Part shown: in pieces, positions 27,122 to 49,511 of the stretch
Layout of the letters: every line of letters begins with the position of its first letter
Numbering within the stretch: position 1 is the stretch's first letter
Source: a virus
DNA length: 64,000 bases
Reading direction: 5' to 3' (one strand)
IMG/VR virus record: IMGVR_UViG_3300044568_005111
Location: 39,436 to 103,435 of that record
Notes under the pieces: generated by a model
Told to the model about the DNA's origin: nothing
Seen by the model: only the letters and a program-made list of their open reading frames with translations
Database searches by the model: none
Program-made: the position numbers and the translations under genes

Positions 27122-27131
27122 ACTCCGTAGT
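27122..27131 (+). repeat. ACTCCGTAGT 10-mer (copy 1)
   Basis: Leftmost copy. It is followed by ...TTTTAGATCAAG, shared with copies 2 and 3. Confidence 0.85.
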
Positions 27132-27317
27132 GACAGTTTTAGATCAAGACCTGATCGGGCTGTCTCTAGGAATTCTTGGAGACGGGCTAGCCTGCACAAT
27201 TGCTGTGTACATGACCTGTTGATGACAACTCTTTAAACGGTTGCAAACAACTTTTGTGTCTCCCGCATTTTATTACTTTTTATTTTCGAAAACGCATTAC
27301 CCATCCAAAGATTATAG

Positions 27318-27343
27318 TTATATTTACTTATAACTTAAAAACA
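27318..27343 (+). promoter_or_regulatory. Early cassette promoter
   Basis: TTATATTTACTTATAACTT then AAAAACA. Confidence 0.72.
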
Positions 27344-27349
27344 AAAGAT

Positions 27350-27562
27350 ATGAAAGCTAATGTAAAAGAATTAATGATGAATGCTAAAGAGGCCCTATCT
27401 AAAGGTAATCAAATGGTTGCAAGCGATCACTTAAATAAGGGAATAATCGTCCTCGCTCGATTAACACAAGAGGGAGTGGTAAATACCGAAGGTGCGTCAG
27501 TTGACCGATGGAAAGAGAGATTTTGGTTTGAGTTAGAAGTCAACGATCTCATCGAAGATTAG
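27350..27562 (+). CDS. Small early protein (70 aa)
   Basis: MKANVKELMMNAKEALSKGN; two or three helices, the second holding HLNKGIIVLARLTQEG. The start abuts the promoter leader. A terminator follows 20 nt after the stop. No family recognised. Confidence 0.68.
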   Translation: MKANVKELMMNAKEALSKGNQMVASDHLNKGIIVLARLTQEGVVNTEGASVDRWKERFWFELEVNDLIED

Positions 27563-27582
27563 AGACACTCAAGATCCTTCTA

Positions 27583-27606
27583 AACCCGGTTAATCCGGGT
27601 TTTTTT
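27583..27606 (+). terminator. Intrinsic terminator
   Basis: AACCCGG/CCGGGTT with T-run. Confidence 0.8.
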
Positions 27607-27654
27607 ATGGAACCTACCCTCGATTTGGAGTATATAATAAAAAGGAGACCCGCT

Positions 27655-27846
27655 ATGGAAGAACAAATCGAACGTACCCTAGACCAATATTACGACTGGA
27701 ACAGACCCGAGATAAAAGATCTGCAGATACTTGAAGAGTCTCCTGACTTGGGAATCCTGTGTATCCGATGGAGACACCGTGACAAGACCATTACAGTAAA
27801 GTCGATATTACAAGATACTACACTATTATTAACTGTGTTGAGATGA
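27655..27846 (+). CDS. Small early protein (63 aa)
   Basis: MEEQIERTLDQYYDWNRPE; an acidic helix and a beta-rich C-terminal half (GILCIRWRHRDKTITVKSIL). The ATG at 27655 is preferred because the upstream in-frame ATG (27607) lies in the terminator T-run. AAAGGAG is just upstream. The stop overlaps the next start by 4 nt. Confidence 0.6.
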   Translation: MEEQIERTLDQYYDWNRPEIKDLQILEESPDLGILCIRWRHRDKTITVKSILQDTTLLLTVLR

Positions 27847-28142
27847 TGAAGAAACCTTTTAGAGAATGGGCACGCGATCTAGAAGTGGAGATAATATTGG
27901 ACCGTGATGGAATCAATTTCTTCCAATGGACTCTCGAAGACGAGTACGAGTCTAGACTGAGTGAAGCTCTGGAATATTTCAGTCAGCGCCCCGACTACTT
28001 GAGACAAGAGTGTCAGGAACATCTAATCGAATTAGACCACTTAGAGACTCGCTTTGTCGAGATCGAAGAGTACGAGAAATGTGCCGCCATCCGAGACTTA
28101 CGTATCGATCTCCAATCTAGATATAAGGAATTCTTGGATTAG
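27843..28142 (+). CDS. Early protein with C-terminal UVR-like motif (99 aa)
   Basis: The C-terminus holds EIEEYEKCAAIRDLRIDL, a UVR motif (E.Y..CA..RD) like that linking UvrB and UvrC and seen in other adaptor proteins. Two other proteins here, at 37615 and 39290, carry the same motif. The N-terminal part (MMKKPFREWARDLEVEI) is unrecognised. Role: probably protein-protein contact. Overlaps the upstream gene by 4 nt. Confidence 0.7.
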   Translation: MMKKPFREWARDLEVEIILDRDGINFFQWTLEDEYESRLSEALEYFSQRPDYLRQECQEHLIELDHLETRFVEIEEYEKCAAIRDLRIDLQSRYKEFLD

Positions 28143-28224
28143 CAAGTATCCAAACGTCTCTTGACAAATCTGAAATTATTTAGAAAAAAAGTGTTAAAAA
28201 GTTTTTCCCGTTAAAATAAAATAG

Positions 28225-28250
28225 TTATATTTACTTATAACTTAAAAACA
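28225..28250 (+). promoter_or_regulatory. Early cassette promoter
   Basis: TTATATTTACTTATAACTT then AAAAACA. Confidence 0.72.
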
Positions 28251-28258
28251 AGCACAAC

Positions 28259-28480
28259 ATGAAAAACAAACTAGATATTAAAAGTGATGCTGCTGACATA
28301 GTAGAGATGACTCGACCTTATCTTGAGATCCCTACCAGCATGATTATAACTATTAAAAAGAATCTTAACTCACTTCTTAAAGAGGAGGCAGAGGGCGACC
28401 CAATGGCGATCGCTGCTATTCGTGCCGCATGGCATATGGAGATATTTGATGCGGATGTTGAACTTGTAAAAAGAAATTAA
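28259..28480 (+). CDS. Small early protein (73 aa)
   Basis: MKNKLDIKSDAADIVEMTRP; an all-helical acidic protein. The start follows the leader. Three tiny genes follow in the same transcript. No family recognised. Confidence 0.68.
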   Translation: MKNKLDIKSDAADIVEMTRPYLEIPTSMIITIKKNLNSLLKEEAEGDPMAIAAIRAAWHMEIFDADVELVKRN

Positions 28481-28481
28481 G

Positions 28482-28589
28482 ATGTATAGAAGAAAAAGAG
28501 CAATACTGAAGGACTACGTCTCCTTAATTGTAAAGAGACGTGCACAGTACAGAACAATCCAGACTGTTAACAATGAAGAAGGTTGTTAG
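28482..28589 (+). CDS. Tiny basic protein (35 aa)
   Basis: MYRRKRAILKDYVSLIVKRR then AQYRTIQTVNNEEGC. Very basic; its ATG is 1 nt after the previous stop, and its end overlaps the next start. Operon position supports it, but its length makes it uncertain. Confidence 0.45.
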   Translation: MYRRKRAILKDYVSLIVKRRAQYRTIQTVNNEEGC

Positions 28590-28734
28590 AGACCCGCACA
28601 AGATCAGGCTCACAGCTAGTCGCGAGTCGCAGAAGAGTCAAGGATTCTTCGATGGTAGATTCGTAGCGAGAGCAGAGGAGTCGAAGAAGAGTTATAAACG
28701 TAAACCCAAACACCCAAACGGAGATGAGGACTAA
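28573..28734 (+). CDS. Small basic protein (53 aa)
   Basis: MKKVVRDPHKIRLTASRESQ; Lys/Arg/Ser-rich, ending in KRKPKHPNGDED. Probably disordered and nucleic-acid binding. Overlaps both neighbours by a few bases, indicating coupled translation. Confidence 0.58.
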   Translation: MKKVVRDPHKIRLTASRESQKSQGFFDGRFVARAEESKKSYKRKPKHPNGDED

Positions 28735-28954
28735 AGAGTTATTTGCAGAAGACCTAGGTAATGGTAAGACGAGAGTATTTGGACCGTGTGTCTTTACTGG
28801 AGAAGAATACAGTTGTGAAGTACCTACGCAAGGTCTCGAGAGACACCTAGCAGGGGAGCATGCACAGACCGCAATGCCGTCGGTTAGCGCCGATGACAGA
28901 GAGTTCCTGATCTCGGGAATCTCGCCAGCTGGCTGGAAAAAAACTTTCGGCTAG
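28724..28954 (+). CDS. Small early protein (76 aa)
   Basis: MRTKELFAEDLGNGKTRVFG, then CVFTGEEYSCEVP and QGLERHLAGEHAQ. It resembles a small two-Cys phage protein but no family is recognised. Overlaps the upstream gene by 11 nt. Confidence 0.65.
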   Translation: MRTKELFAEDLGNGKTRVFGPCVFTGEEYSCEVPTQGLERHLAGEHAQTAMPSVSADDREFLISGISPAGWKKTFG

Positions 28955-29008
28955 TCAAGTTTTTAAGTTATCGAAGAAGGGGAGCTCGCAAGGCTCCCTT
29001 TCCGGTTT

Positions 29009-29018
29009 ACTCCGTAGT
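29009..29018 (+). repeat. ACTCCGTAGT 10-mer (copy 2)
   Basis: Intergenic, within CCGGTTTACTCCGTAGT. Confidence 0.85.
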
Positions 29019-29098
29019 GGCTATTTTAGATCAAGACCCGATCAAGGTGTCTCTAGTCTTTTATTACCCAGTATTCTACCAGTGTATAATAAAAATTA

Positions 29099-29123
29099 TT
29101 ATATTTACTTATAACTTAAAACT
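29099..29123 (+). promoter_or_regulatory. Early cassette promoter
   Basis: TTATATTTACTTATAACTT then AAAAC. Confidence 0.72.
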
Positions 29124-29130
29124 AAAGAGT

Positions 29131-29286
29131 ATGACAAAAGGATTTAAAGAGTTACTAAAATTAGCTAAGTCTGCAAAGGTAACAACGTATGATGAATTAC
29201 AAAACTTGGTCTATGAGTGTACCAACGAGATTACTGGAGCCGATTTCGAATGCGTTAGGCAACAGTTAAAGATTAGAATGTTTTAG
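29131..29286 (+). CDS. Small early protein (51 aa)
   Basis: MTKGFKELLKLAKSAKVTTY; helical. The start after the promoter leader is preferred to the upstream in-frame ATG. It is a single-gene cassette closed by a terminator at 29297. No family recognised. Confidence 0.65.
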   Translation: MTKGFKELLKLAKSAKVTTYDELQNLVYECTNEITGADFECVRQQLKIRMF

Positions 29287-29296
29287 ATAATCTTTA

Positions 29297-29318
29297 AACC
29301 CGAGCAATCGGGTTTTTT
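29297..29318 (+). terminator. Intrinsic terminator
   Basis: AACCCGA-GCAA-TCGGGTT with T-run, identical in the stem to that at 24319. Confidence 0.82.
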
Positions 29319-29472
29319 CATGCAGCTTGCTCGCGGGTCTCTGGGAATTCTTAGAGACGAGCCTGATCGGGCAGATGTCTTAGGGGTCCGCGAGTTGTTA
29401 ACGTCGGCTGGCAACTAAATTAGTCTCTTGCTATTTAATTACCCAATCCCTACCAACGTATATAAGAAATTA

Positions 29473-29497
29473 TTATATTTACTATATAACTTAATCC
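29473..29497 (+). promoter_or_regulatory. Early cassette promoter
   Basis: TTATATTTACTATATAACTT then AATCC. Confidence 0.7.
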
Positions 29498-29505
29498 ACT
29501 AGACC

Positions 29506-29811
29506 ATGACAAAGAAGATAAACTGCACAGACGTGTATCAAGCTATTCAGGACTTTCTCGGCGGAGAGAACGGTAGTCCACTAATGAACGAACCTTATCG
29601 TGACTCGGACGGAGACATAGTATTTGCAGATTACAATGGAGTAGAGTTTTACGAGCACGCTCTACTTGATTGGTATCGTTCTCTAGTTGAGGATAAGCTT
29701 ATTGCTGACTCTTTGGAGACAGCCGGTGTCAGCATTGAATTGGTTGACGATTATGATTGGCTGGAATCAGACGACCAATTGGATGACGATGAGGATGAAG
29801 AAGATTATTAA
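29506..29811 (+). CDS. Early protein with acidic aromatic tail (101 aa)
   Basis: MTKKINCTDVYQAIQDFLGG; a compact N-terminal domain, then a tail of Asp/Glu ending DDDEDEEDY. The genes at 30741 and 31311 end in similar tails. A run of acidic residues ending in an aromatic residue is the protein-binding tail type of SSB and T7 gp2.5; whether that applies is untested. Single-gene cassette. Confidence 0.7.
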   Translation: MTKKINCTDVYQAIQDFLGGENGSPLMNEPYRDSDGDIVFADYNGVEFYEHALLDWYRSLVEDKLIADSLETAGVSIELVDDYDWLESDDQLDDDEDEEDY

Positions 29812-29815
29812 AGTA

Positions 29816-29827
29816 TTGTTTTAAGTT
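29816..29827 (+). repeat. 3'-UTR repeat TTGTTTTAAGTT (copy 2)
   Basis: 4 nt after the stop of the 101-aa gene. Confidence 0.6.
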
Positions 29828-29835
29828 AAGAATCA

Positions 29836-29856
29836 GCTCGAGTAATCGGGCTTTTT
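29836..29856 (+). terminator. Intrinsic terminator
   Basis: GCTCGA-GTAA-TCGGGC then T5. Confidence 0.75.
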
Positions 29857-29948
29857 CTTTTTTGGTTGGATTAGGATCAGGCTGGCGAGTCTCTAGACTT
29901 TTATGTAAAAATAGTTACTCAAGAAGTGTACTAATTAATAAATTATAG

Positions 29949-29974
29949 TTATATTTACTATATAACTTAAAAAC
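29949..29974 (+). promoter_or_regulatory. Early cassette promoter
   Basis: TTATATTTACTATATAACTT then AAAAAC. Confidence 0.72.
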
Positions 29975-29981
29975 AAAAAGG

Positions 29982-30137
29982 ATGTACAGTTTAAAATGTG
30001 ATTACTACACAAAGGAGTTCCCAACGCTAGAGGAGCTCATCGATGATGTTATGGCCAGCGGAATGGACCCCAACCATGAGGTGACAAGAGACGGTCGAGG
30101 TACTGGCGAAGATGCCATTGATTTTATCATGTTCTAA
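29982..30137 (+). CDS. Small early protein (51 aa)
   Basis: MYSLKCDYYTKEFPTLEELI; acidic, helical, with DDVMASGMDPNHEVTRDG. The start follows the promoter leader by 7 nt. Heads a three-gene cassette. No family recognised. Confidence 0.65.
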   Translation: MYSLKCDYYTKEFPTLEELIDDVMASGMDPNHEVTRDGRGTGEDAIDFIMF

Positions 30138-30139
30138 TT

Positions 30140-30340
30140 ATGGAGACGTCACTACTTAGCATGTTCCACGAGTTGAATTCATTCGTGCCATGCGCTCAGT
30201 ACTTCAAATCGGCCAGCGACTCTGGAATCACGGTCAGTAATAATAGAAAATTCGCAGGTCTCGTAAGGGAGTGGTCCGCTGGAGACTACGACGAGTGTCC
30301 AGACTTGCTAGTACAGAGATTAACCAACTTAATCCATTAA
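30140..30340 (+). CDS. Small early protein (66 aa)
   Basis: METSLLSMFHELNSFVPCAQ; 2 nt after the previous stop. Helical, with two Cys. No family recognised. Confidence 0.65.
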   Translation: METSLLSMFHELNSFVPCAQYFKSASDSGITVSNNRKFAGLVREWSAGDYDECPDLLVQRLTNLIH

Positions 30341-30343
30341 GCC

Positions 30344-30520
30344 ATGTCAACAAGTGTAAAGTTAATTAGAGGAAATGCAATAGAGATTGAGGTAGGAACC
30401 CGTGTAGAGTTCACAGTCGGCGACGAAGTATTAAGTGATACTATAACCTTTATTGGAGACGACACAATAGAAGGCGAGAAGTTTGACCTAACCCATACTC
30501 GATTCCGAGTAGTAGAGTAA
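30344..30520 (+). CDS. Small beta-rich protein (58 aa)
   Basis: MSTSVKLIRGNAIEIEVGTR, VEFTVGDEVLSDTITFIGDD; short alternating strands suggest a small beta-barrel. 3 nt after the previous stop; last gene of its cassette. No family recognised. Confidence 0.62.
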   Translation: MSTSVKLIRGNAIEIEVGTRVEFTVGDEVLSDTITFIGDDTIEGEKFDLTHTRFRVVE

Positions 30521-30587
30521 CAAAGAGCAGCCTAAGCGAGTGTCTCGGCCGGGTAAAGGTGCCGCCGCCAAGAAAGAGACAGGACAG

Positions 30588-30612
30588 GGGTCAGCGAGAG
30601 CTGGCCCTTTCC
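30588..30612 (+). terminator. Intrinsic terminator
   Basis: GGGTCAGC-GAGA-GCTGGCCC then TTT; same stem at 32541. Confidence 0.78.
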
Positions 30613-30617
30613 GGTTT

Positions 30618-30627
30618 ACTCCGTAGT
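30618..30627 (+). repeat. ACTCCGTAGT 10-mer (copy 3)
   Basis: Directly after the terminator. Confidence 0.85.
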
Positions 30628-30706
30628 AACCGTTTTAGATCAAGGCTGGATCCGAGTGTCTCTAGACTTTTATTTCTGCAGGATTTTTTTATTTAAAAGA
30701 TTATAG

Positions 30707-30733
30707 TTATATTTACTATATAACTTAAAAACA
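30707..30733 (+). promoter_or_regulatory. Early cassette promoter
   Basis: TTATATTTACTATATAACTT then AAAAACA. Confidence 0.72.
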
Positions 30734-30740
30734 AAAAGAA

Positions 30741-31154
30741 ATGAAAGCAGGAAAGTATTTTATTGGTGACCTATGCTATGTATTAGGAGACCGTTGGGAT
30801 GAGGTATGCAGCCTCATTATTATTGACCATAGTTGTTTGGACGGAGAGTTCGAGCTTAGTGATGGGACCAAATTTGCGATCTATGGCACCGCACATGGAG
30901 ATGGCGTATATCCTGATCAGAGAGGCAATGGGTATCCAGTAGATTCGGGTTCGATTGGTTGTGTACTAGTTGATGATATAACAGAGGGAGAATTGGATGA
31001 ATCCCTAGGAAATATCCATGATTTTGAGGAGGACTTTAAGACCGGTGAGGAGAATGGAATAATTAGGATCGGTGATGTTGATATCGATACTCGAGGAGAG
31101 TGTGATGACGAGGACCTAGATGAATATTTTGAGGACGAAGATGAAGATTACTAG
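30741..31154 (+). CDS. Early protein with acidic aromatic tail (137 aa)
   Basis: MKAGKYFIGDLCYVLGDRWD, FAIYGTAHGDGVYPDQ and YPVDSGSIGCVLV are typical of a phage-encoded beta-rich protein of unknown function. The C-terminus is strongly acidic and ends FEDEDEDY. Single-gene cassette with TTGTTTTAAGTT after the stop. Confidence 0.72.
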   Translation: MKAGKYFIGDLCYVLGDRWDEVCSLIIIDHSCLDGEFELSDGTKFAIYGTAHGDGVYPDQRGNGYPVDSGSIGCVLVDDITEGELDESLGNIHDFEEDFKTGEENGIIRIGDVDIDTRGECDDEDLDEYFEDEDEDY

Positions 31155-31158
31155 AGTA

Positions 31159-31170
31159 TTGTTTTAAGTT
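31159..31170 (+). repeat. 3'-UTR repeat TTGTTTTAAGTT (copy 3)
   Basis: 4 nt after the stop. Confidence 0.6.
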
Positions 31171-31177
31171 AAGGGTT

Positions 31178-31201
31178 GGCTCGAGTGATCGGGCCTTTTC
31201 T
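31178..31201 (+). terminator. Intrinsic terminator
   Basis: GGCTCGA/TCGGGCC with TTTT. Confidence 0.75.
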
Positions 31202-31277
31202 TTGTTTAATCCACGAGTGTCTCTAGACTTTTGTGCCCAAAAGTTTCTGCAAGATTTTTTTATTTAAAAGATTATTG

Positions 31278-31303
31278 TTATATTTACTATATAACTTAAT
31301 AAC
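31278..31303 (+). promoter_or_regulatory. Early cassette promoter
   Basis: TTATATTTACTATATAACTT then AATAAC. Confidence 0.72.
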
Positions 31304-31310
31304 ATAACCT

Positions 31311-31547: not shown

Positions 31548-31558
31548 AAAATAAGAGT

Positions 31559-31780: not shown

Positions 31781-31856
31781 CCAAGCCCGCGGCCCGCGTC
31801 TCTTGTAAAACTTTCAAAAAAGTTTCCGCAGAATTGTCAAGATTAAAAGATTATGG

Positions 31857-31883: not shown

Positions 31884-31891
31884 TAAAGAGT

Positions 31892-32137
31892 ATGGTATTA
31901 GAACCAATTGCACCAGAAACGTTACGCGCTCGCCTAAGAGAGGGAGTCGTACAGTTCGCTTTCAAGAAAGTGGACGGAACATTGAGAACCGCTGTAGGCA
32001 CCACAAACCTTGCCACGATTCCTGTAGAGAATCATCCAAAGGGCACAGGAACACCTTCCGACAAGTCGGTAAGATTCTTCGACGTGGAGAAGAGAGAGTG
32101 GAGAAGTGTGAGTATCCTACGTGAAATCTATCTATAA
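31892..32137 (+). CDS. SH3-fold protein of DUF2693 type (81 aa)
   Basis: LRARLREGVVQFAFKKVDGT then RTAVGTT, and SVRFFDVEKREWRSVSILRE fit the small SH3-barrel DUF2693 family that is common in Bacteroidota phages and mobile elements. The function of the family is unknown. First of three genes in the cassette; the next start is 1 nt after the stop. Confidence 0.65.
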   Translation: MVLEPIAPETLRARLREGVVQFAFKKVDGTLRTAVGTTNLATIPVENHPKGTGTPSDKSVRFFDVEKREWRSVSILREIYL

Positions 32138-32138
32138 G

Positions 32139-32354
32139 ATGAGCACACTAAAGGTAGGAGACACAGTAATGTGGCGTGGCGGATTCGGGAGTGAACCGCC
32201 GCGCAAAGCAAAAGTGATTGGACTAGAGGTATGCCCAGCCGGAGAAAAGTATGGGGAGAGCAGAGACCATGTTGAGTGGAGCAAGATTCACTCCGTAGTG
32301 GTAGACCTCGATAATGGTCACTGGGCGAAGGGTCATCAAATCTCTCCGCTATGA
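32139..32354 (+). CDS. Small protein (71 aa)
   Basis: MSTLKVGDTVMWRGGFGSEP then RKAKVIGLEVCP. A KOW/SH3-like beta-barrel is likely (GDTV.W start, VDLDNGHWAKGHQI end). The ATG 1 nt after the previous stop is preferred over an upstream GTG. A 10-mer lies inside, coding H-S-V-V. Confidence 0.65.
   Translation: MSTLKVGDTVMWRGGFGSEPPRKAKVIGLEVCPAGEKYGESRDHVEWSKIHSVVVDLDNGHWAKGHQISPL
32290..32299 (+). repeat. ACTCCGTAGT 10-mer (copy 4, within a gene)
   Basis: In-frame codons CAC TCC GTA GTG. Confidence 0.85.
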
Positions 32355-32579: not shown

Positions 32580-32589
32580 ACTCCGTAGT
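32580..32589 (+). repeat. ACTCCGTAGT 10-mer (copy 5)
   Basis: Intergenic. Confidence 0.85.
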
Positions 32590-35483: not shown

Positions 35484-35493
35484 ACTCCGTAGT
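35484..35493 (+). repeat. ACTCCGTAGT 10-mer (copy 6)
   Basis: 3 nt after a stop codon. Confidence 0.85.
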
Positions 35494-37614: not shown

Positions 37615-37947
37615 ATGATGAAGTTTATTGAAGAATATGATGAAGTGTCGGGAACAACATTTATCATTCCAGAGTTTGAGATTGAGATTGAGGATGCAAC
37701 GGATCTTCAAGGATACGTAGATTCTAACCGGGATCTAGTCACTAAAGCAATTGCTGCAGCGGCTGACCTGATGGTGGAGTTTGAGCTAGACGAGATTCCG
37801 TGCTTTGTAATCAAGAATATTAATACTATATTTAAACTAAATAGAGCTGAGGCGGTTTACTCCGTAGACCAGTGTATACAATATTTCTTGGAGATAGAGG
37901 ACTACGAGAAATGCGCAAGATTAACTAACGTAAAATCAAGATTATGA
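37615..37947 (+). CDS. Early protein with C-terminal UVR-like motif (110 aa)
   Basis: MMKFIEEYDEVSGTTFIIPE, an acidic middle, then YFLEIEDYEKCARLTNVKSR, a UVR-type motif like those at 27843 and 39290. Probably a protein-interaction adaptor. Overlaps the next start by 4 nt. A near-copy of the 10-mer (ACTCCGTAGA, 37859) lies inside. Confidence 0.68.
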   Translation: MMKFIEEYDEVSGTTFIIPEFEIEIEDATDLQGYVDSNRDLVTKAIAAAADLMVEFELDEIPCFVIKNINTIFKLNRAEAVYSVDQCIQYFLEIEDYEKCARLTNVKSRL

Positions 37948-38231: not shown

Positions 38232-38951
38232 ATGAGATTCGAAACATCAGAAAATTTGCCGAAGTATTTTAAGACAATTCAAAAAAGCAAACCATTAACA
38301 GTTGCTGAAGAGGGTCAATTAGTATTAGATATCCAGACTGGAGACTCGCAAGCAGTTGCGGCACTGGTGCAGGCAAACTTAAAGTTTGTAGTAAAAGTAG
38401 CTAATCGACATATGGGACAAGGCGTGCCAATTGATGACCTAATCCAGGAAGGGAACATAGGTTTGATAGAGGCTGCTCAAGCGTTCAAGCCGCGTGAAGG
38501 ACAGAGATTTATTAACTATGCTCAACTGTGGATCAGGAAACGTATCAACGAGTCAGTCGCTAAGACTGGCCGAATCGTTCGCTTACCTCACAACCAAGAG
38601 TACGAGATCTTTAAGTCTAAAAGAAAAGGAGAAGAGGTTGAGGCGCCAACTCGAGTAAGCATTGACAAGAAGATTGGAGATGAGGGCGAGAACACGCTAG
38701 GAGATATTATCCTTAAAACTGGATCTGAAGTAGAGTTTGCAATGGAGATGGACTCAATCAAGTTCAGAGTAAAGCAGGCTCTTAGTGTTCTTAAAGAACG
38801 TGATCGTGGAATTATCATGGACTACTTTGGTATTGAGAGAGAGTACGAGGTGCCAACTGACATGATCGCCGAGAAATACTCAATGACTAATGTTCGAGTG
38901 TGCCAAATCGTAAAGGCATCAGTTGAAAAGATGAAATTAACAATTATATAA
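38232..38951 (+). CDS. Phage sigma-70 family factor (second)
   Basis: 239 residues. Sigma region 1.2 (PKYFKTIQKSKPLTVAEE), complete region 2 (NLKFVVKVANRHMGQG, DDLIQEGNIGLIEA, FINYAQLWIRKRIN), a short region 3 (RIVRLPHNQEYEI) and a region 4 helix-turn-helix (TDMIAEKYSMTNVRVCQIVKAS). It is made from an early promoter and so is present before late transcription begins, a natural candidate for the early-to-late switch. It is more divergent from host RpoD than the first sigma and lacks its N-terminus. Confidence 0.9.
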   Translation: MRFETSENLPKYFKTIQKSKPLTVAEEGQLVLDIQTGDSQAVAALVQANLKFVVKVANRHMGQGVPIDDLIQEGNIGLIEAAQAFKPREGQRFINYAQLWIRKRINESVAKTGRIVRLPHNQEYEIFKSKRKGEEVEAPTRVSIDKKIGDEGENTLGDIILKTGSEVEFAMEMDSIKFRVKQALSVLKERDRGIIMDYFGIEREYEVPTDMIAEKYSMTNVRVCQIVKASVEKMKLTII

Positions 38952-38954: not shown

Positions 38955-38964
38955 ACTCCGTAGT
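38955..38964 (+). repeat. ACTCCGTAGT 10-mer (copy 7)
   Basis: 3 nt after the sigma stop codon and 3 nt before the next ATG. Confidence 0.85.
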
Positions 38965-41463: not shown

Positions 41464-41473
41464 ACTCCGTAGT
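41464..41473 (+). repeat. ACTCCGTAGT 10-mer (copy 8)
   Basis: Just after a terminator. Confidence 0.85.
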
Positions 41474-42613: not shown

Positions 42614-43762
42614 ATGATCGAAATCAAAGGAGGTAGAAAAGAACAGGTAGTTCGACAGTGGTTTAACGACACCCATGATGGGATCGTACCACGAGCAAAG
42701 GTATTAGATATGTTCAACGAGTTTGAGCTAGTACCTAAAGACGAGGATATCTCGTACGGGCTCTTCAATGGAGTAATTAAAAAGATACAGGCAGAGGGCC
42801 ATGGCGCGAGCTCAGCCCAGGCTCAAGAGTCAAGTGGCCCTCGCCTAATTCACTCCGTAGTAGACTGTGAGCCTAATATTATTAACGTGGAGGACATGGA
42901 GTTTCCAAGCTTTGGACTCTTTCCTACTGGCAAGAAGATCGACGATCTCTTCTCAGACCATGAAGCGGGTGGTGGACTCTACGGCGGCACTGTGAATATC
43001 GTAATTGGAGAGTCAGGTGTCGGCAAGAGTACCGTGATGCTGGACCTCTTAGCCTCTATTGTGGACCAGAATCCAGAAGCTAAGATACTCTATATCTCCA
43101 GCGAGATGACTCGTAACGATATCATGTTCTACTATAGAAAGACACCTGCTATTGGCAAGGTGCCTACCCTACTCCTAATGGACTATGTTAAGAACGGTCA
43201 ATTGGCCCAAGTCTTGGAGAAGAGTTTCAATGGGGAGCACGACGTTATCTTATTAGACTCTTATCAAGATGTCTTGGTAAAATTGAAGGAGGTACATGGT
43301 TGGAAGTCAACTAAAGCAGAAAGCTGGTTAACTAACATGATGATTGATGCTGCAGAGAAATGTGGTAATGCCGTCTTGGCAATTCAGCACATGACTAAAG
43401 GTGGTCAGTATGTTGGTTCTACTTATCTTAAGCATGCCACTACCGCGATGTTAGAGATACGTTTCGACTTGACAGGTCAGCGTTATATCGAGTTCTCAAA
43501 GAACAGACGAGGCGGTAGCGGTACTGGTAAGAGACTCTACTACAAGCTTGACGAGACCGGTGCAGTAGTATACGATACCGCTCGCTTTACTGAGACAGAG
43601 GAGATGCGTAACTTTGAGAACGTGGAAACCCTACGCCAACAGGACTTGACAGCCCAGTTCGAGAATATCTTTCTAGGCGGTAATCGACACCTAGACGAGG
43701 ACTCCGTAGAAGAGGAGTCGGGCGAAGTCAAATCGTCAGAGTTCTGGCCAGTTGAAGAATAA
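42614..43762 (+). CDS. RecA/DnaB-superfamily ATPase (helicase or recombinase-like)
   Basis: 382 residues. The N-terminal 90 residues are helical (RQWFNDTHDGIVPRAKVLD) with a linker. The RecA-fold core has Walker A GESGVGKST (about 132-140), Walker B VILLDSY, then LAIQHMTKGGQYVGSTYLKHA and FSKNRRGGSGTGKRLYYKLD. This is the layout of RadA/DnaB-like phage ATPases used in replication or recombination (compare T4 gp41 or UvsX). The exact role cannot be fixed. Followed by a terminator and then the DUF932-like gene. Contains one exact and one near 10-mer. Confidence 0.8.
   Translation: MIEIKGGRKEQVVRQWFNDTHDGIVPRAKVLDMFNEFELVPKDEDISYGLFNGVIKKIQAEGHGASSAQAQESSGPRLIHSVVDCEPNIINVEDMEFPSFGLFPTGKKIDDLFSDHEAGGGLYGGTVNIVIGESGVGKSTVMLDLLASIVDQNPEAKILYISSEMTRNDIMFYYRKTPAIGKVPTLLLMDYVKNGQLAQVLEKSFNGEHDVILLDSYQDVLVKLKEVHGWKSTKAESWLTNMMIDAAEKCGNAVLAIQHMTKGGQYVGSTYLKHATTAMLEIRFDLTGQRYIEFSKNRRGGSGTGKRLYYKLDETGAVVYDTARFTETEEMRNFENVETLRQQDLTAQFENIFLGGNRHLDEDSVEEESGEVKSSEFWPVEE
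42852..42861 (+). repeat. ACTCCGTAGT 10-mer (copy 9, within a gene)
   Basis: In-frame codons CAC TCC GTA GTA in the ATPase linker. A near-copy ACTCCGTAGA lies at 43701. Confidence 0.85.
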
Positions 43763-43861: not shown

Positions 43862-45037
43862 ATGAGAGAAGTATCAAATCAACAGTTCGACCTAATTCGA
43901 GAAACAATGACCGCTAACGAGCATGCTACAAAGCAGGTTCCAATCACGGCAATCAAACTTACCGAGCACTCGTTTGCTAGAAATCAAATCGAGATCGGTG
44001 GTCAACCAGTAAAGGTATCCAATGGATTCTTCTTACGAATGGCAAGTATGCTAAAGATGAATGCATCCTTGACCCGAGAGTTTATCAAGAACGACAATTC
44101 AAAAGTTGCTGCGGCAATGATGAATGCTCTAAACGAGTATCGCCGTTCACAAGGAGGTAAGGACGTCCTAGTCATCGCCAACCCTGAGACCAGAGAGGTG
44201 ATTGATATCTGTGACCCTAAACGTTACAGACGCTTGACTAACGAGTCCTTATTCGACATGACCTCAAAAATCATGAATGAACACCCGTCCCTAATTATAG
44301 AGACAGTAGACCACAGTCCAAGTGGAGGTAATACTTCTATCAACTTCTTGAATTCAGAGGAGGTAGGATTTCCAGGAGCAGGCAATGACGAGTTCTTTAA
44401 GTTCGGCTTCTCCATCACACAGACTTCTAAAGACACTATCGTCGAGACCTACAATACTCGATTGGTATGTTCCAATGGAATGCGTGTAAGCTTTGGAAGT
44501 GGTTCAATCGGTGGTAATCGTGACATACACTTCGAGGAGAGATTTAAACTAGGAGGAACGGAAGCTGATGATATTAGAACCTTCCTTAACCGAGTGGATG
44601 CCATGAAGAAGGCTGGCTTTGTACCTGGAGGATTCCAACACGCTATCCAATCTGCAGTCGGCACTAAGGCAAGTCTAGCCGAGGTCGAGAACGCAATGAT
44701 GTTGGCTCAACGTAAAGTTAGAGAGGACGATCCTCAATTCAAGAAAGGATTTATTGATGCAATCGAACGTAACTACTTCGGCGGTCACCAAGATACCTTA
44801 GCACGTATTATGCAAAAGGGACAAGACCCATACAAATTGAACGACAAGCAGAAAGGATTTATCAAGACAGGCATGTCAGTATGGGACGTAATCAACTCGC
44901 TTACCTACTTAGGTTCAAATAACTCAGGCATTGAGTTGGCTGACAAGTACGAGTTGAAAGCACAGGCAGGAGACTTATTCGCCAAAGGATCGAACTCAGG
45001 TTTTGACCTACAATTCGCTCAGTACGCGCAATTATAA
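43862..45037 (+). CDS. DUF932-like phage protein (391 aa)
   Basis: RLVCSNGMRVSFG followed by a C-terminal SVWDVINSLTYLGS is the signature of the DUF932 family of phage and plasmid proteins, whose function is unknown. It has an N-terminal helical segment, a beta-rich core and a C-terminal helical region. It is highly expressed in some phages; here it has its own promoter and a strong terminator. It lies next to a replication-type ATPase, so a link to DNA metabolism is plausible. Confidence 0.8.
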   Translation: MREVSNQQFDLIRETMTANEHATKQVPITAIKLTEHSFARNQIEIGGQPVKVSNGFFLRMASMLKMNASLTREFIKNDNSKVAAAMMNALNEYRRSQGGKDVLVIANPETREVIDICDPKRYRRLTNESLFDMTSKIMNEHPSLIIETVDHSPSGGNTSINFLNSEEVGFPGAGNDEFFKFGFSITQTSKDTIVETYNTRLVCSNGMRVSFGSGSIGGNRDIHFEERFKLGGTEADDIRTFLNRVDAMKKAGFVPGGFQHAIQSAVGTKASLAEVENAMMLAQRKVREDDPQFKKGFIDAIERNYFGGHQDTLARIMQKGQDPYKLNDKQKGFIKTGMSVWDVINSLTYLGSNNSGIELADKYELKAQAGDLFAKGSNSGFDLQFAQYAQL

Positions 45038-45054
45038 GTTGGTTTGACGACGGG

Positions 45055-45080
45055 AAAGGGAGCTTCGGCTCCCTTTTTTT
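45055..45080 (+). terminator. Strong intrinsic terminator
   Basis: AAAGGGAGC-TTCG-GCTCCCTTT then T-run, with a stable TTCG loop. Confidence 0.9.
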
Positions 45081-45094
45081 GTGCCTAATATTTT

Positions 45095-45104
45095 ACTCCG
45101 TAGT
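45095..45104 (+). repeat. ACTCCGTAGT 10-mer (copy 10)
   Basis: Intergenic. Confidence 0.85.
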
Positions 45105-45345
45105 CCGGGTCTCTGCTATCGCGCGTCGTAACACGCCCGCCCGTACACGGGAGCAGGCCCGGGTCTCTGGTTTTCCCTGCCCGCCGGGGCTCATGACAGC
45201 CTAGTCTACCATGGAGCTCGAGGCCCAATCTAAGGAGGCACAGTTTCCCTTGGCGAGGCTTTGTCACATGACCGGTAAGTTTCTATATAGACGAGAAGAG
45301 GGTCCCTTAGAGAGAGCCTGTTAGACTGATGTCATGAAGTAACTA

Positions 45346-45720
45346 TTAGAAGCCTTTGAATAGACGGTGATGTATGAGTCTATCCATACCTCCTTCACGT
45401 AGAGACTGGAGATCCTGTAAATTAATTAGGATTACCTGGGCAGGAGAGCTACCACCGCCATCGTCAGTATCGTCCATGATCCAGACAGCATTTACCCCAG
45501 GCAGGAGCTCATGCACGCTACTCTCTACCTCGCCACTCTTAGTCAGCGGTAAGATATTATTAAAGGTAGTAAGCATCCCATCAAGCTCGGCCCAGATAGG
45601 ATCCTTCTCGGTGACGGTCACGATTGGAGACTCTATCCGCTTTAAGATCGCGGCACGTTGCCAGTCATAGAGTATCTCGTCTATCTCTTCGGGCAGGTTA
45701 GGTATAGTATAGTGCTTCAT
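45346..45720 (-). CDS. Hypothetical protein (124 aa)
   Basis: MKHYTIPNLPEEIDEILYDW; a helical start, then NAVWIMDDTDDGGGSSPAQV and RLIHHRLFKGF. No family recognised. It ends a three-gene minus-strand operon with the two DUF1566-like genes (3-nt gaps), and all three end in an F-K-(D/G/N)-F-like tail. Confidence 0.67.
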   Translation of the reverse strand: MKHYTIPNLPEEIDEILYDWQRAAILKRIESPIVTVTEKDPIWAELDGMLTTFNNILPLTKSGEVESSVHELLPGVNAVWIMDDTDDGGGSSPAQVILINLQDLQSLREGGMDRLIHHRLFKGF

Positions 45721-45723
45721 AAG

Positions 45724-46083
45724 TTAAAAATCTTTAAATAGGTAGGTTATCGCCGAATTCCCATTAAAGTCCCGAACAGCAAGTAAATAGCGTGGGGTCG
45801 TCTTAACGTAGGCGGGGATATACGTTTCGCCGAAATTGAAGCAGTACATATTGTTGAGGTCATATTCAGTACTACTCCAATAGGATGCAAGTTGCCATTT
45901 GCTGGCTCTAACATTAGGAATCTTTGAGACATTCGGCAGGAGGATCCTTTTAAATTCATCAAGTGTCGGTGCCCTCCAATTTGGACCTAGTGCAGCCATA
46001 GCATCTAGCGCTTCTCCCCAAGTCATCTTGCCAAAATCCTCTGGCCAAACCTGTAAATCCTCTATTATTATCACGTCTTCCAT
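45724..46083 (-). CDS. DUF1566-like (C-type-lectin-related) protein (119 aa)
   Basis: MTWGEALDAMAALGPNWRAP then TLDEFKRI and ASYWSSTEYD, and later VRDF, match the DUF1566/Lcl domain (W-R-L/A-P-T..EF...YWSSTE...R.VR), a C-type-lectin-like fold often seen on bacterial surfaces and in phage tails. Sister of the gene at 46087. It lacks a signal peptide and a targeting motif. Confidence 0.72.
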   Translation of the reverse strand: MEDVIIIEDLQVWPEDFGKMTWGEALDAMAALGPNWRAPTLDEFKRILLPNVSKIPNVRASKWQLASYWSSTEYDLNNMYCFNFGETYIPAYVKTTPRYLLAVRDFNGNSAITYLFKDF

Positions 46084-46086
46084 AAG

Positions 46087-46437
46087 TTAAAAGTTTTTTA
46101 GTAATAAGCCAATCGCAATCTCTCCAGTAATGTCCCGAACCGCACGCACATAAGATGTGGTGAGCTTAAAGTAGTCGTGAGCATTCCCATTGTAGACGTT
46201 GAAGAACCACGCGATGTTGGCGTCACGCTCTGTACTACTCCAATAGTAGGCGAAGGATATAGTTTTTCCAAACAGTTTCTCCCTATTTGGATAGAGTACC
46301 TCCCTAAATTCTTCAATGGTCGGCAGGCGCCAACCTGGACCTAGCTTAGCTACTTCAGCTGTAGCTTCGTCCCAAGTCATCTTACCAAGATCCTCGGGCC
46401 AAATTTCTAACTCCTCTATTATTAGCGCGTCTCTCAT
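46087..46437 (-). CDS. DUF1566-like (C-type-lectin-related) protein (116 aa)
   Basis: MTWDEATAEVAKLGPGWRLP then TIEEFREVL and AYYWSSTERD, then YVRAVRDI. A tandem paralogue of the gene at 45724 (3-nt gap), diverging most in the loop between YWSSTE and VR. That region is hypervariable in DGR-targeted lectin-fold proteins, but no reverse transcriptase or template repeat is present here. Confidence 0.74.
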   Translation of the reverse strand: MRDALIIEELEIWPEDLGKMTWDEATAEVAKLGPGWRLPTIEEFREVLYPNREKLFGKTISFAYYWSSTERDANIAWFFNVYNGNAHDYFKLTTSYVRAVRDITGEIAIGLLLKNF

Positions 46438-46448
46438 AAAGATATTTA

Positions 46449-47234
46449 TTACATTAAGTCGGAAAGATTCTCCTTGCTAGGAGTCTCTGGCTTGTCCTCC
46501 CAATTAGGTGTGATCTTGCCGGGGTGCTCGCGTCTCTGCTTTTTCCTTGGCACAGGTAAGACATCCCCGTCTAGCTTGTCTAACCTGTCTACCCCTGCTT
46601 TAAGTAGGAGATTCGTGAGATCCTTCTCCTGTTCTAACCTATACTCTGGCACCGTGATGGCCGAGTTGATTACCACCACCTCTACCCCATAATATCGGAA
46701 CCAGGCCGGAAAGATCTCCCAGCCTACTCGAGCCAGTCTGTCCGGCGTCTCTACTATAATCACCGACACCTTCTTTTTAATTACATCTTGGATTAGCTCA
46801 TGCAGACCGGGTCTCCAGTCCAGAGAGAAGTCAGTAGCCGGGCACCAGTCGTCGTAGAGCTTTTCCAGAGAGATACCCCGCTGTGCTGACCAGTTTCGGA
46901 CTAGTTGTTGTTGTCTCTGCATGAGGGCTCGGTCGGACTCCGTAGTCCCGGCTACCCTACAATAGGCTACAGCCCAGTTATCTCGCACAAGTCTCTTGCC
47001 GAGTAGAGCATAGATGTCGTCGTCCCAGTACATCTTACGACCTTTGGCGTCTTCGCTATACCTGATCCTACCTTTCTTGGTCCATGACTTTAGGGTGTTA
47101 TAGCTACAGCTGAGTACCTCCATTGCTTCCTTTGCCCACATACTTCGTTTCTTTCGTTTATTTATCCCTCTAGAAGCTATCAGATTTAGGGCTAGTTGCA
47201 AGTAGATACCTTCTCGCATCGGATTGATAGCCAA
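46449..47234 (-). CDS. IS607-type serine recombinase with missing catalytic serine
   Basis: 261 residues. An N-terminal MerR-like helix-turn-helix (MWAKEAMEVLSCSYNTLKSW, RIRYSEDAKGRKMYWDDDIY) is followed by a resolvase domain: WAVAYCRVAGTTESDRALMQRQ, then VSVIIVETPDRLARVGWE with its conserved arginines. The motif normally reads YxRVS with the catalytic Ser; here it is Tyr91-Cys-Arg93-Val-Ala95. No TnpB partner or element ends are visible, so it is probably not transposing; it may be a domesticated DNA-binding protein. A 10-mer lies exactly over these codons. Confidence 0.8.
   Translation of the reverse strand: MAINPMREGIYLQLALNLIASRGINKRKKRSMWAKEAMEVLSCSYNTLKSWTKKGRIRYSEDAKGRKMYWDDDIYALLGKRLVRDNWAVAYCRVAGTTESDRALMQRQQQLVRNWSAQRGISLEKLYDDWCPATDFSLDWRPGLHELIQDVIKKKVSVIIVETPDRLARVGWEIFPAWFRYYGVEVVVINSAITVPEYRLEQEKDLTNLLLKAGVDRLDKLDGDVLPVPRKKQRREHPGKITPNWEDKPETPSKENLSDLM
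46937..46946 (+). repeat. ACTCCGTAGT 10-mer (copy 11, inside the recombinase gene)
   Basis: On the strand opposite the gene; encodes part of G-T-T-E-S just after the catalytic position. Confidence 0.85.
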
Positions 47235-47264
47235 GGTTGATAGCTTGGGGGTTTCCCGTTCGGG

Positions 47265-47274
47265 ACTCCGTAGT
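47265..47274 (+). repeat. ACTCCGTAGT 10-mer (copy 12)
   Basis: Intergenic. Confidence 0.85.
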
Positions 47275-47503
47275 AAACGTAGGTTGCCCTTGCGGCATTA
47301 CGGCTCACTAAAGGGATATCGGGGTGCAGTAGACTGTCACCCGTGGTCGGGGTCATTGGGCTAGGTCTGCTGGTATGTTTGGGGTCTCTGCTATCTATAG
47401 GATCTCTGTTCCTGGGTCTTGATAGGTAGTGTCCACTCTCTAGAGACTCCTATTCTTTTTCTCCCTATTCTGGTTTCTAGGTATTATAGTCACATAGTGC
47501 TGG

Positions 47504-47513
47504 ACTCCGTAGT
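47504..47513 (+). repeat. ACTCCGTAGT 10-mer (copy 13)
   Basis: 9 nt before the late promoter. Confidence 0.85.
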
Positions 47514-47522
47514 GACTAGTAA

Positions 47523-47533
47523 GATAAATAAAA
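47523..47533 (+). promoter_or_regulatory. Late promoter motif
   Basis: GATAAATAAAA, 4 nt before the ATG. Confidence 0.62.
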
Positions 47534-47537
47534 GAGT

Positions 47538-48083
47538 ATGAAGTATATTAAGTTATTTGAGACCTATCAATGGTTAAATAAGGAGAGCTCTGACTCTGAC
47601 GAGAGGGATTTTATCACTACTGTAGAGTCTCTGTTAGACTGGGCAGGTGGTCCTGAATGGAGCAGTGATTGGACCTGGCTCGAGGATATTTTGATGGTAG
47701 ATGACGAACCCTTGGAGGAGGGCGAGGCGATTGGTTACCATGAGTTGCTTAAAAGAGGTAGGGATCAGGAGATAGAGGTTTATTCTCAGCAGGTCGAAGG
47801 TCAGGTAGATAGCAGTTGGACTCTCGATGGGGTAAGCTTTACTCTTATCTCATGGGACTGGCCTTTTACTAGTGACCTAGGTGACCTAACAGATATTGAG
47901 AAAAGGGTAGTGGATCGATTAGTTAAGGAGTTGACTGGGGATCGCGTCATGGACTTGGCGAATCTAGTTGATATTATTGAATACGTCCAGTTGGTGATTA
48001 GAGAGAAGGGCGAGGATCCCGATAAGGTGAACTCAACGGGCTTTAAGAACTGGTATCTCTTACAGAGATCGGGTGCTAACTGA
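47538..48083 (+). CDS. Capsid-targeted-like late protein (181 aa)
   Basis: MKYIKLFETYQWLNKESSDS is a variant of the targeting motif (F..Y..LNKES). The body is acidic and helical, Trp-rich near residue 33-56 (DWAGGPEWSSDWTWLED). No recognised family. It has its own late promoter immediately upstream, with almost no leader. Confidence 0.68.
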   Translation: MKYIKLFETYQWLNKESSDSDERDFITTVESLLDWAGGPEWSSDWTWLEDILMVDDEPLEEGEAIGYHELLKRGRDQEIEVYSQQVEGQVDSSWTLDGVSFTLISWDWPFTSDLGDLTDIEKRVVDRLVKELTGDRVMDLANLVDIIEYVQLVIREKGEDPDKVNSTGFKNWYLLQRSGAN

Positions 48084-48095
48084 CCCTAGAGCCGG

Positions 48096-48105
48096 ACTCC
48101 GTAGT
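48096..48105 (+). repeat. ACTCCGTAGT 10-mer (copy 14)
   Basis: Overlaps the late promoter of the next gene at its edge. Confidence 0.85.
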
Positions 48106-48120
48106 AATAAATAACTAAAA
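48106..48120 (+). promoter_or_regulatory. Late promoter motif
   Basis: AATAAATAACTAAAA before the 166-aa gene. Confidence 0.6.
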
Positions 48121-48133
48121 GGTAGAAGAATAT

Positions 48134-48634
48134 ATGTTAAAGTCATTCTATGATTTTGTTAATGAGTCTCACTCTGATCAAGGGTTAGAGGATGCACGAC
48201 ACCTAATGGAACTGGGTATGATCTCAGCCGGTGATTACTATCGAAAGCTGATTGAGCTTCGTACTGACGATATTAAGAGGTATGCAACTGCAGAATTTAT
48301 AGTCACCTTTACTACTGGTTGGTTGGCTCAAAATGGATCGCGAGAGACTCAAGATTGGATCCTAAGGGAGATACCTAGGGTATTACCCGACGGTTTTCTA
48401 CTCGATCCAGAATCGGTTGGTCTTGACTCTTGGGAAAGGGCTGACTATGAGGACGATTTGAGAGACGGCTTTGATCCAGAGGAGATATATGGAACCTTTG
48501 AAGTTGGGTATCCTGTTTTTGGGGATGAGGATCTTGATGCTAGAGTTGAGGAGAAACTCGATCAGCTCTATCTAGAGATTCATCAAATGGAGGACATGTT
48601 TACTGAAGTCGGCATGGATTCTAATTATAAATAA
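48134..48634 (+). CDS. Capsid-targeted protein with LGMI module (166 aa)
   Basis: MLKSFYDFVNE|SHS is a canonical targeting motif, almost the same as that of the CHAP protein at 18913. It is followed by LEDARHLMELGMISAGDYYR, the shared module, and an acidic alpha/beta domain. No enzymatic motif. Convergent with the next minus-strand gene. Confidence 0.78.
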   Translation: MLKSFYDFVNESHSDQGLEDARHLMELGMISAGDYYRKLIELRTDDIKRYATAEFIVTFTTGWLAQNGSRETQDWILREIPRVLPDGFLLDPESVGLDSWERADYEDDLRDGFDPEEIYGTFEVGYPVFGDEDLDARVEEKLDQLYLEIHQMEDMFTEVGMDSNYK

Positions 48635-48654
48635 CTGGAATAGAGAGTTTAGGC

Positions 48655-49242
48655 TTAGTCGTGACTCCAGTCGCTAGTGTCTTCAATAGTGTCATCATCC
48701 ACTTCCTCATTGAACCCATCAATGATCTCAAGGATATCCTCTACCTTAAGTATTGATATTGGACCGTTATATGACCAGGTAGCATCATACGAGTTTTCAT
48801 CATCTTCGTCTTCATCATCTTCGTCTTCATACCCTTCTTCAAAGTCCCGGTTAGCATAGAGTGCTCTTAGCTCAAGAGAGGAGTCTCCGCCGAGGTAGAC
48901 TACCACGGTTACCGGGTCGTCATACTGCCGCTCATACTCATAATTATTATAGTGGTTCTGTGCCATGTTTACCAGGTCTGAACTAAGTGTAAACTCAATC
49001 GTGTTATAGGGAGTTTTGTAAACTACTGGTTTTCCCCAAATATCAGGTTCTGCAAGGTGTCGACTCTCTAGGTCCTGTAGTAGACTATCTACCCATCCAG
49101 TAGGGTCAATCTTCTTAGCTCCTCTTGTAAACTCAAGAGGATCGATTAGTCCCAAGTCAAGCAGATTTTGTAGGTCACCTGGACTCAGCTGACCTGAGGG
49201 CTCTTCATTTTCGTTTATCCATTCCTGAAATCCTTTAATCAT
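48655..49242 (-). CDS. Capsid-targeted protein with LGMI-type module (195 aa)
   Basis: MIKGFQEWINE|NEE (targeting motif), then PGDLQNLLDLGLIDPLEFTR (module). A run of Asp/Glu at about 137-149 (EDEDDEDEDDENS) and an acidic C-terminus make it one of the most acidic proteins here. No family. Late promoter at 49254. Confidence 0.78.
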   Translation of the reverse strand: MIKGFQEWINENEEPSGQLSPGDLQNLLDLGLIDPLEFTRGAKKIDPTGWVDSLLQDLESRHLAEPDIWGKPVVYKTPYNTIEFTLSSDLVNMAQNHYNNYEYERQYDDPVTVVVYLGGDSSLELRALYANRDFEEGYEDEDDEDEDDENSYDATWSYNGPISILKVEDILEIIDGFNEEVDDDTIEDTSDWSHD

Positions 49243-49253
49243 GACGGGTCTCT

Positions 49254-49271
49254 ATTTTTTTTTTATTTATC
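49254..49271 (-). promoter_or_regulatory. Late promoter motif
   Basis: GATAAATAAAAAAAAAAT on the minus strand. Confidence 0.58.
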
Positions 49272-49511
49272 AACCAGATTGGACCCAGAGTCGGACTCCG
49301 TAGTCCCAGTAGTGGTGTCATGGAAGATCTGACCTAGGTGAAACATGTTTCGTAGGGCAAGTATCCGCTCTTCTCGGGTCTCTACTGTACTCTCTAAGCG
49401 GGTAGCAAGCTCTTCGACTATCATAAGTTCTAGATTAGGCGAGCTGAATCCTTCCATTCGGTGCACGCTCTTTACCAATTCTTCTCCTAGACTCTCCAAG
49501 TTATTTTTCAT
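49263..49511 (-). CDS. Small protein with LGMI-like module (82 aa)
   Basis: MKNNLESLGEELVKSVHRME; helical, with ILALRNMFHLGQIFHD like the shared module. The start chosen overlaps the stop of the upstream gene; a longer start is possible. Its 3' end contains a 10-mer (49295), read as T-T-E-S. No targeting motif. Confidence 0.6.
   Translation of the reverse strand: MKNNLESLGEELVKSVHRMEGFSSPNLELMIVEELATRLESTVETREERILALRNMFHLGQIFHDTTTGTTESDSGSNLVDK
49295..49304 (+). repeat. ACTCCGTAGT 10-mer (copy 15, within a gene)
   Basis: Rightmost copy seen. Confidence 0.85.

Follow-up and report, generated by a model that had tools for sequence, protein, structure and literature searches.

What reads a ten-letter word that occurs 15 times on one strand of a phage genome and never on the other? 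The question arises from a 64-kb window (the whole stretch of DNA analysed, 64,000 nucleotides; bases 39436-103435 of the IMG/VR record IMGVR_UViG_3300044568_005111), for which the initial annotation had pointed out the strand-specific 10-mer ACTCCGTAGT. All 15 exact plus-strand copies that it listed were recovered at the same coordinates, with none on the minus strand, against an expectation of about 0.05 per strand under an order-3 Markov model. They fall within one 22-kb stretch of the record. The accompanying claim that no copies lie outside this interval or in reverse holds for the complete 103,435-base record, which contains only those 15 copies, and for G001, another assembly of this phage (128.5 kb), which is identical over the 21 kb compared, carries the same 15 copies and adds none in a further 47 kb.

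The phage encodes a T4-like large terminase (phrog_2 and phrog_5989 matches), with 2,530 phage records matching at less than 60% identity, and no close cultured relative was found among 50,697 phage records. Of 73 papers matched by a text search of the literature for the motif, the 20 listed have no connection with phages. Within the motif block, numerous small genes are accompanied by promoter-like repeats of their own; the block also encodes a sigma-70-like factor, a RadA/DnaB-like ATPase and a conserved protein, and its opposite strand encodes a protein resembling IS607 TnpA (hereafter the TnpA-like protein). In window coordinates, the motif copies and their conserved neighbours are:

27122-27131, plus strand: motif copy 1 (ACTCCGTAGT), intergenic, past a terminator
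29009-29018, plus strand: motif copy 2, intergenic, past a terminator
30618-30627, plus strand: motif copy 3, intergenic, past a terminator
32290-32299, plus strand: motif copy 4, within the small gene 32121-32354
32580-32589, plus strand: motif copy 5, intergenic, past a terminator
35484-35493, plus strand: motif copy 6, directly past a stop codon; position shared with G004
37859-37868, plus strand: variant copy ACTCCGTAGA, within gene 37615-37947
38232-38951, plus strand: phage sigma-70-like factor, conserved neighbour
38955-38964, plus strand: motif copy 7, 3 nucleotides past the sigma gene; also adjoins the sigma 3' end in G018, G019 and G020
41464-41473, plus strand: motif copy 8, intergenic, past a terminator
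42614-43762, plus strand: RadA/DnaB-like ATPase, conserved neighbour with two motif sites within
42852-42861, plus strand: motif copy 9, variable linker of the ATPase gene (codons HSVV); retained in nearly all relatives
43701-43710, plus strand: variant copy ACTCCGTAGA, ATPase C-terminal tail (DSVE); retained in class I relatives
43862-45037, plus strand: conserved neighbour without a Pfam match, in 15 of 16 blocks
45095-45104, plus strand: motif copy 10, past gene 43862-45037; opens a conserved noncoding element
46449-47141, minus strand: IS607-TnpA-like protein with HTH_17 at the N-terminus and a resolvase fold, catalytic serine missing; candidate motif binder
46937-46946, plus strand: motif copy 11, within the TnpA-like gene, antisense
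47142-47537, no strand assigned: noncoding region upstream of the TnpA-like gene, GC-rich, site-dense in all relatives; phased array (57-58 bp) in class II
47265-47274, plus strand: motif copy 12, on the upstream side of the TnpA-like start at a distance of 125 bp; most relatives have a site at 123-143 bp
47504-47513, plus strand: motif copy 13, between the TnpA-like start (364 bp upstream of it) and gene 47538 (25 bp before it)
48096-48105, plus strand: motif copy 14, upstream of gene 48134
49295-49304, plus strand: motif copy 15, the final copy of the array

As initially described, copies occur both between and inside genes, a minus-strand gene included: three exact copies are intragenic, at 32290 (gene 32121-32354, plus strand), 42852 (ATPase, plus strand) and 46937 (recombinase-like gene, minus strand), and the others are intergenic, many of them directly past a terminator or 3-4 nucleotides past a stop codon. 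Allowing one mismatch across the window yields three extra matches, at the level of chance (2.6 expected). Two of these are the near-copies already noted at 37859 and 43701, both ACTCCGTAGA, and they prove to be real variants: this T10>A form is the sole common single-base variant, with 13 occurrences on the motif strand and none on the other across eight genomes. Given this bias and the rarity of other variants, the recognised unit is ACTCCGTAG followed by T, less often A. The motif is nearly palindromic (ACT-CCGT-AGT). Among palindromic intermediates, a single ACTACGTAGT was found in the reference genome and none otherwise. A hairpin formed by the ACT...AGT arms and their flanks was rejected, as the extension was not significant and 27 of 61 copies had none at all.

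Conservation of the motif in relatives and the base switch

To place the array in an evolutionary setting, we examined relatives located through the TnpA-like protein, the ATPase or motif pairs. They are metagenomic IMG/VR contigs of 100-271 kb, many incomplete and none cultured, and the set includes near-duplicate loci (L123-L126 and L133). Exact ACTCCGTAGT is retained on a single strand in relatives whose ATPases are 87, 78, 69, 64, 63 and 53% identical to that of the window. Counts on the motif strand and on the other strand are 8/0 in G018, 13/1 in G004, 9/0 in G005, 6/0 in G003, 14/0 in G019, 15/0 in G020, 11/0 in G022 and 16/0 in G023, the one in G004 being the sole reverse copy among them. 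Counting over the full record and in relatives, in line with the check that had been suggested, gave a strand-specific and confined motif. Several site positions are shared: the ATPase linker (HSVV/DSVV), the ATPase tail (SVE), the 3' end of the sigma gene, the interior of the TnpA-like gene, and a point roughly 125-140 bp upstream of its start. The motif-bearing ATPase codons are embedded in otherwise variable, fast-changing stretches, so that the DNA word has evidently shaped the protein there.

Scanning with an alignment of eight ATPase sequences provided 32 loci picked independently of the motif. Among these, a clade at 51-55% ATPase identity has few or no ACTCCGTAGT copies. Counting of k-mers in this clade returned ACTCCCTAGT as a top strand-pure word, with 4-14 copies per record on one strand only and none on the other; a minority of sites are of the G type, and one genome (G032) is G-dominant. 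All 12 ACTCCCTAGT copies of a 253-kb record lie inside 11 kb, and all 10 copies of a circular 271-kb genome (127-base terminal overlap) lie inside 8.2 kb, with none elsewhere. Since one base has changed at most sites of the set, a trans-acting reader with sequence specificity is implied. Within this uncultivated jumbo-phage lineage the motif is ancient, and strong selection has maintained it.

Two apparent exceptions were set aside. G002, with an 87% identical terminase and no copies, is not a counter-example, as the contig does not reach the block. G021 and G024 were rejected as relatives, as the reverse complement of the motif is a ribosome-binding site there: in this unrelated 327-kb phage (L071-L072 in G021; L078 in G024), ACTACGGAGT is an extended Shine-Dalgarno sequence placed 8-9 nucleotides before the starts of about 16 genes. 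Separately, the class II relative L130 (record G044) carries another strand-pure word, GAGTTTACC, with 26 copies in 21 kb and none in reverse. A 254-kb contig from a Bacteroidetes metagenome-assembled genome (MAG) also belongs to class II.

Strand flip and confinement of the sites

One relative separates motif direction from gene direction. In G023, the ATPase, the sigma factor and their neighbours are on one strand and all 16 copies on the other. The genes themselves have kept the order of the reference and, as there, point the same way as the rest of the genome, which led us to reject inversion of the gene block as the cause. Two of the recurrent sites, in the ATPase linker and just upstream of tnpA, persist in reversed orientation in G023, whose sister lineages are unflipped. 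Motif direction is therefore not dictated by genes or transcripts; instead, the copies must agree with one another.

This flip excludes codon, promoter and RNA explanations. A codon effect is untenable, as the motif is mostly intergenic and is antisense both in G023 and in the TnpA-like gene; together with the motif codons in fast-changing ATPase stretches, this bears out the view that the strand-specific signal is real. A transcription or RNA signal (promoter element, antitermination, RNA-processing or ribosome-binding site) might be suspected from the same-strand orientation of most genes around the window motif, from the many copies that follow terminators, and from the Shine-Dalgarno role of the reverse complement in the G021 phage. 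However, the entire G023 set is antisense to the same genes, one window copy is antisense within a minus-strand gene, and no second element occurs at a fixed distance from the motif. A promoter or RNA motif was rejected on these grounds, and we consider any signal of this kind highly improbable.

Strict polarity that is independent of gene direction would also fit a polar signal, Chi-like for recombination or KOPS-like for a motor, that a translocating enzyme of host or phage recognises. Such signals are genome-wide, whereas the sites here span 8-27 kb of 100-271 kb records, or 3-20% of the genome, and the motif is absent elsewhere in the phage. Furthermore, it covaries with the phage clade, one-base switch included, and the 10-mer is missing from the Bacteroidetes MAG that holds relative G046, although this MAG may not be the host. 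We give a signal of this kind very little credence. The Chi-like or genome-wide replication or packaging role first proposed fits poorly as well, since the copies are limited to this small fraction of the genome beside one DNA-binding-protein gene.

That gene encodes the TnpA-like protein, which is found adjacent to the array in every relative with enough flanking sequence. Across 16 blocks, the only families present in all are the ATPase and the TnpA-like protein, and the universality of the ATPase carries no weight because it served as search bait. The sigma factor and gene 42121 are absent only from a truncated locus, and the 43862 family only from G022. Over the 400 bp that precede the TnpA-like start on its upstream side, the sites reach a density of 6.6 per kb, compared with 1.5 per kb in the gene and 0.69 per kb elsewhere in the block, an approximately ninefold upstream enrichment. 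The nearest upstream site is 123-143 bp from the start in most genomes. This upstream region is GC-rich relative to its surroundings, and in class II it holds 2-5 motifs at exact steps of 57-58 bp, with the motif alone conserved between units. For even spacing of the sites in general, support was weak (P 0.01-0.44), and the idea was set aside. A 484-kb phage encodes a homologous ATPase (32% identity) and lacks a TnpA-like gene, positive controls having matched in the same protein search; no motif cluster was found in the 50 kb examined around its ATPase.

The main rival to a binding protein as reader is a set of localized nick sites of the T5, phiKMV and tf type, in which a phage nickase cuts one strand per site in virion DNA and a ligase reseals the cuts after entry, the one-strand placement serving to avoid double-strand breaks. 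Phage tf has 14 nicks at TACT/RTGMC, on one strand, mostly in the early region and extending into opposite-strand genes; its relatives have similar nick positions and a main site that differs by one base (PMC3517423). Our re-count of the tf sites gave 14 on the plus strand and none on the minus strand, the same one-strand rule as here. The phiKMV consensus CGACxxxxxCCTA/CTCCGG has ACTCCG in common with the motif, although this overlap is short and post hoc, and the window phage encodes an ATP-dependent DNA ligase. Known nick sets, however, cover most of the genome rather than 3-20% of it; nicking gives no reason to expect the densest sites, evenly phased, at the gene of one DNA-binding protein; and no relative of the TnpA-like protein or the ATPase was found in phiKMV or tf. 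On balance we think nicking unlikely, while treating it as a serious competitor. The nicking or modification site raised by the initial annotation thus survives in its first half, and modification has no specific support. If the motif does mark nicks, it is relevant to a long-standing and unsolved problem, the reason for nicked genomes in some phages.

In a role in replication control, the array would be part of an origin or of a polar zone of fork control (with iterons for an initiator derived from TnpA, or with Ter-like barriers), and motif direction would follow fork direction. The collective flip in G023 speaks for such a role. The phased, iteron-like array beside the TnpA-like gene and the RadA/DnaB-like ATPase adjoining in all blocks are in line with it. 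So is the GC-rich noncoding element at 45105-45290 (GTCTCTGCTATCGCGCGTCGT...GTACACGGGAGC...CCCTGCCCGC), which is strongly conserved in G018, G004 and G003 and is possibly an origin or an RNA; it has no Rfam match and little covariation. Against replication control, fourfold-site GC skew, a weak guide here, reveals no clear sign of an origin at the block in either of two long genomes, iterons are not normally scattered over 20 kb or placed inside genes, and the lack of an Rfam match at the element counts here too. We therefore rate it as quite unlikely.

The TnpA-like protein as candidate motif reader

The adjacent gene, like the en-bloc base switch and the flipped relative, had escaped the initial annotation. 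Its product matches Pfam Resolvase (E 2e-11), with HTH_17 under its cut-off, and the best PDB and Foldseek matches are IS607 TnpA proteins specifically (predicted structure with a predicted local distance difference test score, pLDDT, of 78). The catalytic serine after the first beta strand (YxRVS) is replaced by A, P, D, G, N or another residue in 20 of 20 aligned homologs, although the alignment has small insertions at this site, which leave room for a displaced serine. In IS607, this serine (S72) is needed for transposition (PMC6188088). Members of the IS607 family belong to mobile elements whose ends are flanked by GG and which often carry an orfB. Here, synteny with neighbouring genes is conserved across relatives, and no transposon ends were seen around the gene, in the course of analyses that included no search aimed at element ends or TnpB. 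Judged by its sequence, the protein is apparently a disabled IS607-type transposase. IS607 TnpA binds cooperatively to several short motifs, with a unit of about 10 bp; it also assembles into a filament and captures a second DNA. Its DNA-binding domain was modelled on RacA (PMC6188088), a Bacillus subtilis protein whose centromere-like binding sites, the ram sites, are dense close to the origin (PMC6593407).

In the mechanism that we propose, ACTCCGTAGT (ACTCCCTAGT in the sister clade) would be a double-stranded recognition site repeated unidirectionally in one domain of 8-27 kb, and its reader would be an IS607-transposase relative that lost the catalytic serine and was domesticated as a DNA-binding protein. 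By binding sites upstream of and inside its own gene, the protein would control its own expression. It would also bind the dispersed sites around the gene and form directional, cooperative complexes, as IS607 TnpA does on transposon-end motifs, bringing distant sites together in parallel. Such complexes would require the sites to share a direction while leaving the absolute direction free, and a reader of this kind would thereby explain the uniform direction, the freedom of absolute direction, the confinement and the dense operator-like region. The system would probably serve to draw this part of the genome together or to anchor it, in the manner of RacA at ram or ParB at parS; segregation, anchoring or compaction is likely the most natural purpose, and purpose is the least certain step.

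Several observations weigh against this proposal. A general intergenic preference accounts for part of the enrichment upstream of tnpA, and the joint absence of TnpA and motif is documented by one clear genome and by a second that is weak and distant. The reader could instead be the sigma factor, present in 15 of 16 blocks with the single miss at a truncated locus, or an unseen factor. With a near-palindromic motif, a dimeric binder has no obvious need of strict direction; known IS607-end motifs are clustered, whereas the sites here are spread over 20 kb; and a 9-nucleotide core with one-strand placement is also typical of nick systems. No ParA-like or anchoring partner was identified, and none was sought. 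Finally, the flip of G023 within its clade has no good evolutionary explanation under any model. Weighing these points, we consider the chances evenly balanced that the TnpA-like protein, as a domesticated former transposase, reads the motif as a directional, centromere-like array. The fuller claim, that a dead IS607 transposase has been recruited as an architectural protein and that its directional array constitutes a polar centromere or genome-domain system switchable in base or strand across the whole set, is put forward tentatively, and we would sooner expect it to fail than to stand. If the TnpA-like protein does read the motif, it would be a clear case of a transposase turned viral architectural or segregation protein, and would offer a testable model of jumbo-phage genome organisation.

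Other features of the window and of the relatives are recorded here in their own right. More than 20 copies of an early-promoter-like repeat, GTTATATTTACT(TA)TATAACTTAAAAAC, lie between 24090 and 42115, all of them on the plus strand; in many cases a GTCTCT element and a terminator come first. Many proteins, in the relatives likewise, share the N-terminal peptide M-x-x-F-x-x-F/W-I/L-N-E, which resembles the capsid-targeting sequence of internal head proteins; its genes are 17746-18108, 18324-18896, 18913-19518, 21983-22324, 22488-22811 and 48655-49242 on the minus strand, and 47538-48083 and 48134-48634 on the plus strand. Three paralogues (20506-21420, minus; 50647-51453, plus; 59144-61927, plus) have a common N-terminus, MSFINWGSESPEQ(L)KEIRRRMEEQM, possibly a targeting or assembly tag, followed by different bodies. 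An Rfam scan of the window returned tRNAs only; fifteen tRNA genes lie at 79-5673, amid genes for a TROVE/Ro60-like protein (960-2588) and a GIY-YIG homing-type endonuclease (3735-4391). The thymidylate synthase at L002:12543-13877 has 444 amino acids, and its family match extends over residues 1-341 against 250 profile positions, which suggests that it carries an insertion.

Comparison with known systems

Like the sites of RacA/ram and ParB/parS, those described here are short, strict and dispersed, yet dense in one part of the genome. Indeed, parS sites also occur within genes and near the gene of their binding protein, and the present array is likewise concentrated at the gene of its candidate binder (6.6 versus 0.69 sites per kb), with some sites intragenic. 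Unlike those systems, this one is directional, confined to one strand and viral, and its candidate binder is a serine-recombinase relative; in place of a palindromic site usable in either orientation, it has a near-palindrome in uniform direction. IS607 TnpA itself has the same fold and domain order as the TnpA-like protein (N-terminal helix-turn-helix, resolvase-fold C-terminus), but the serine is lost in the 20 homologs here and the sites extend over 8-27 kb. Chi and KOPS are similarly short polar sequences whose sense is set by a DNA process and not by genes, but they are genome-wide and read by host motors, whereas this motif is local and specific to a phage clade. The interruptions of T5, the phiKMV group and tf also have strict, conserved, one-strand sites that are independent of genes and change a base between relatives, but they are distributed over most of the genome, in contrast to the confined domain around one gene described here. 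To our knowledge, no phage system has been described in which a strand-coherent set of sites in one small domain is base-switched and strand-flipped en bloc.

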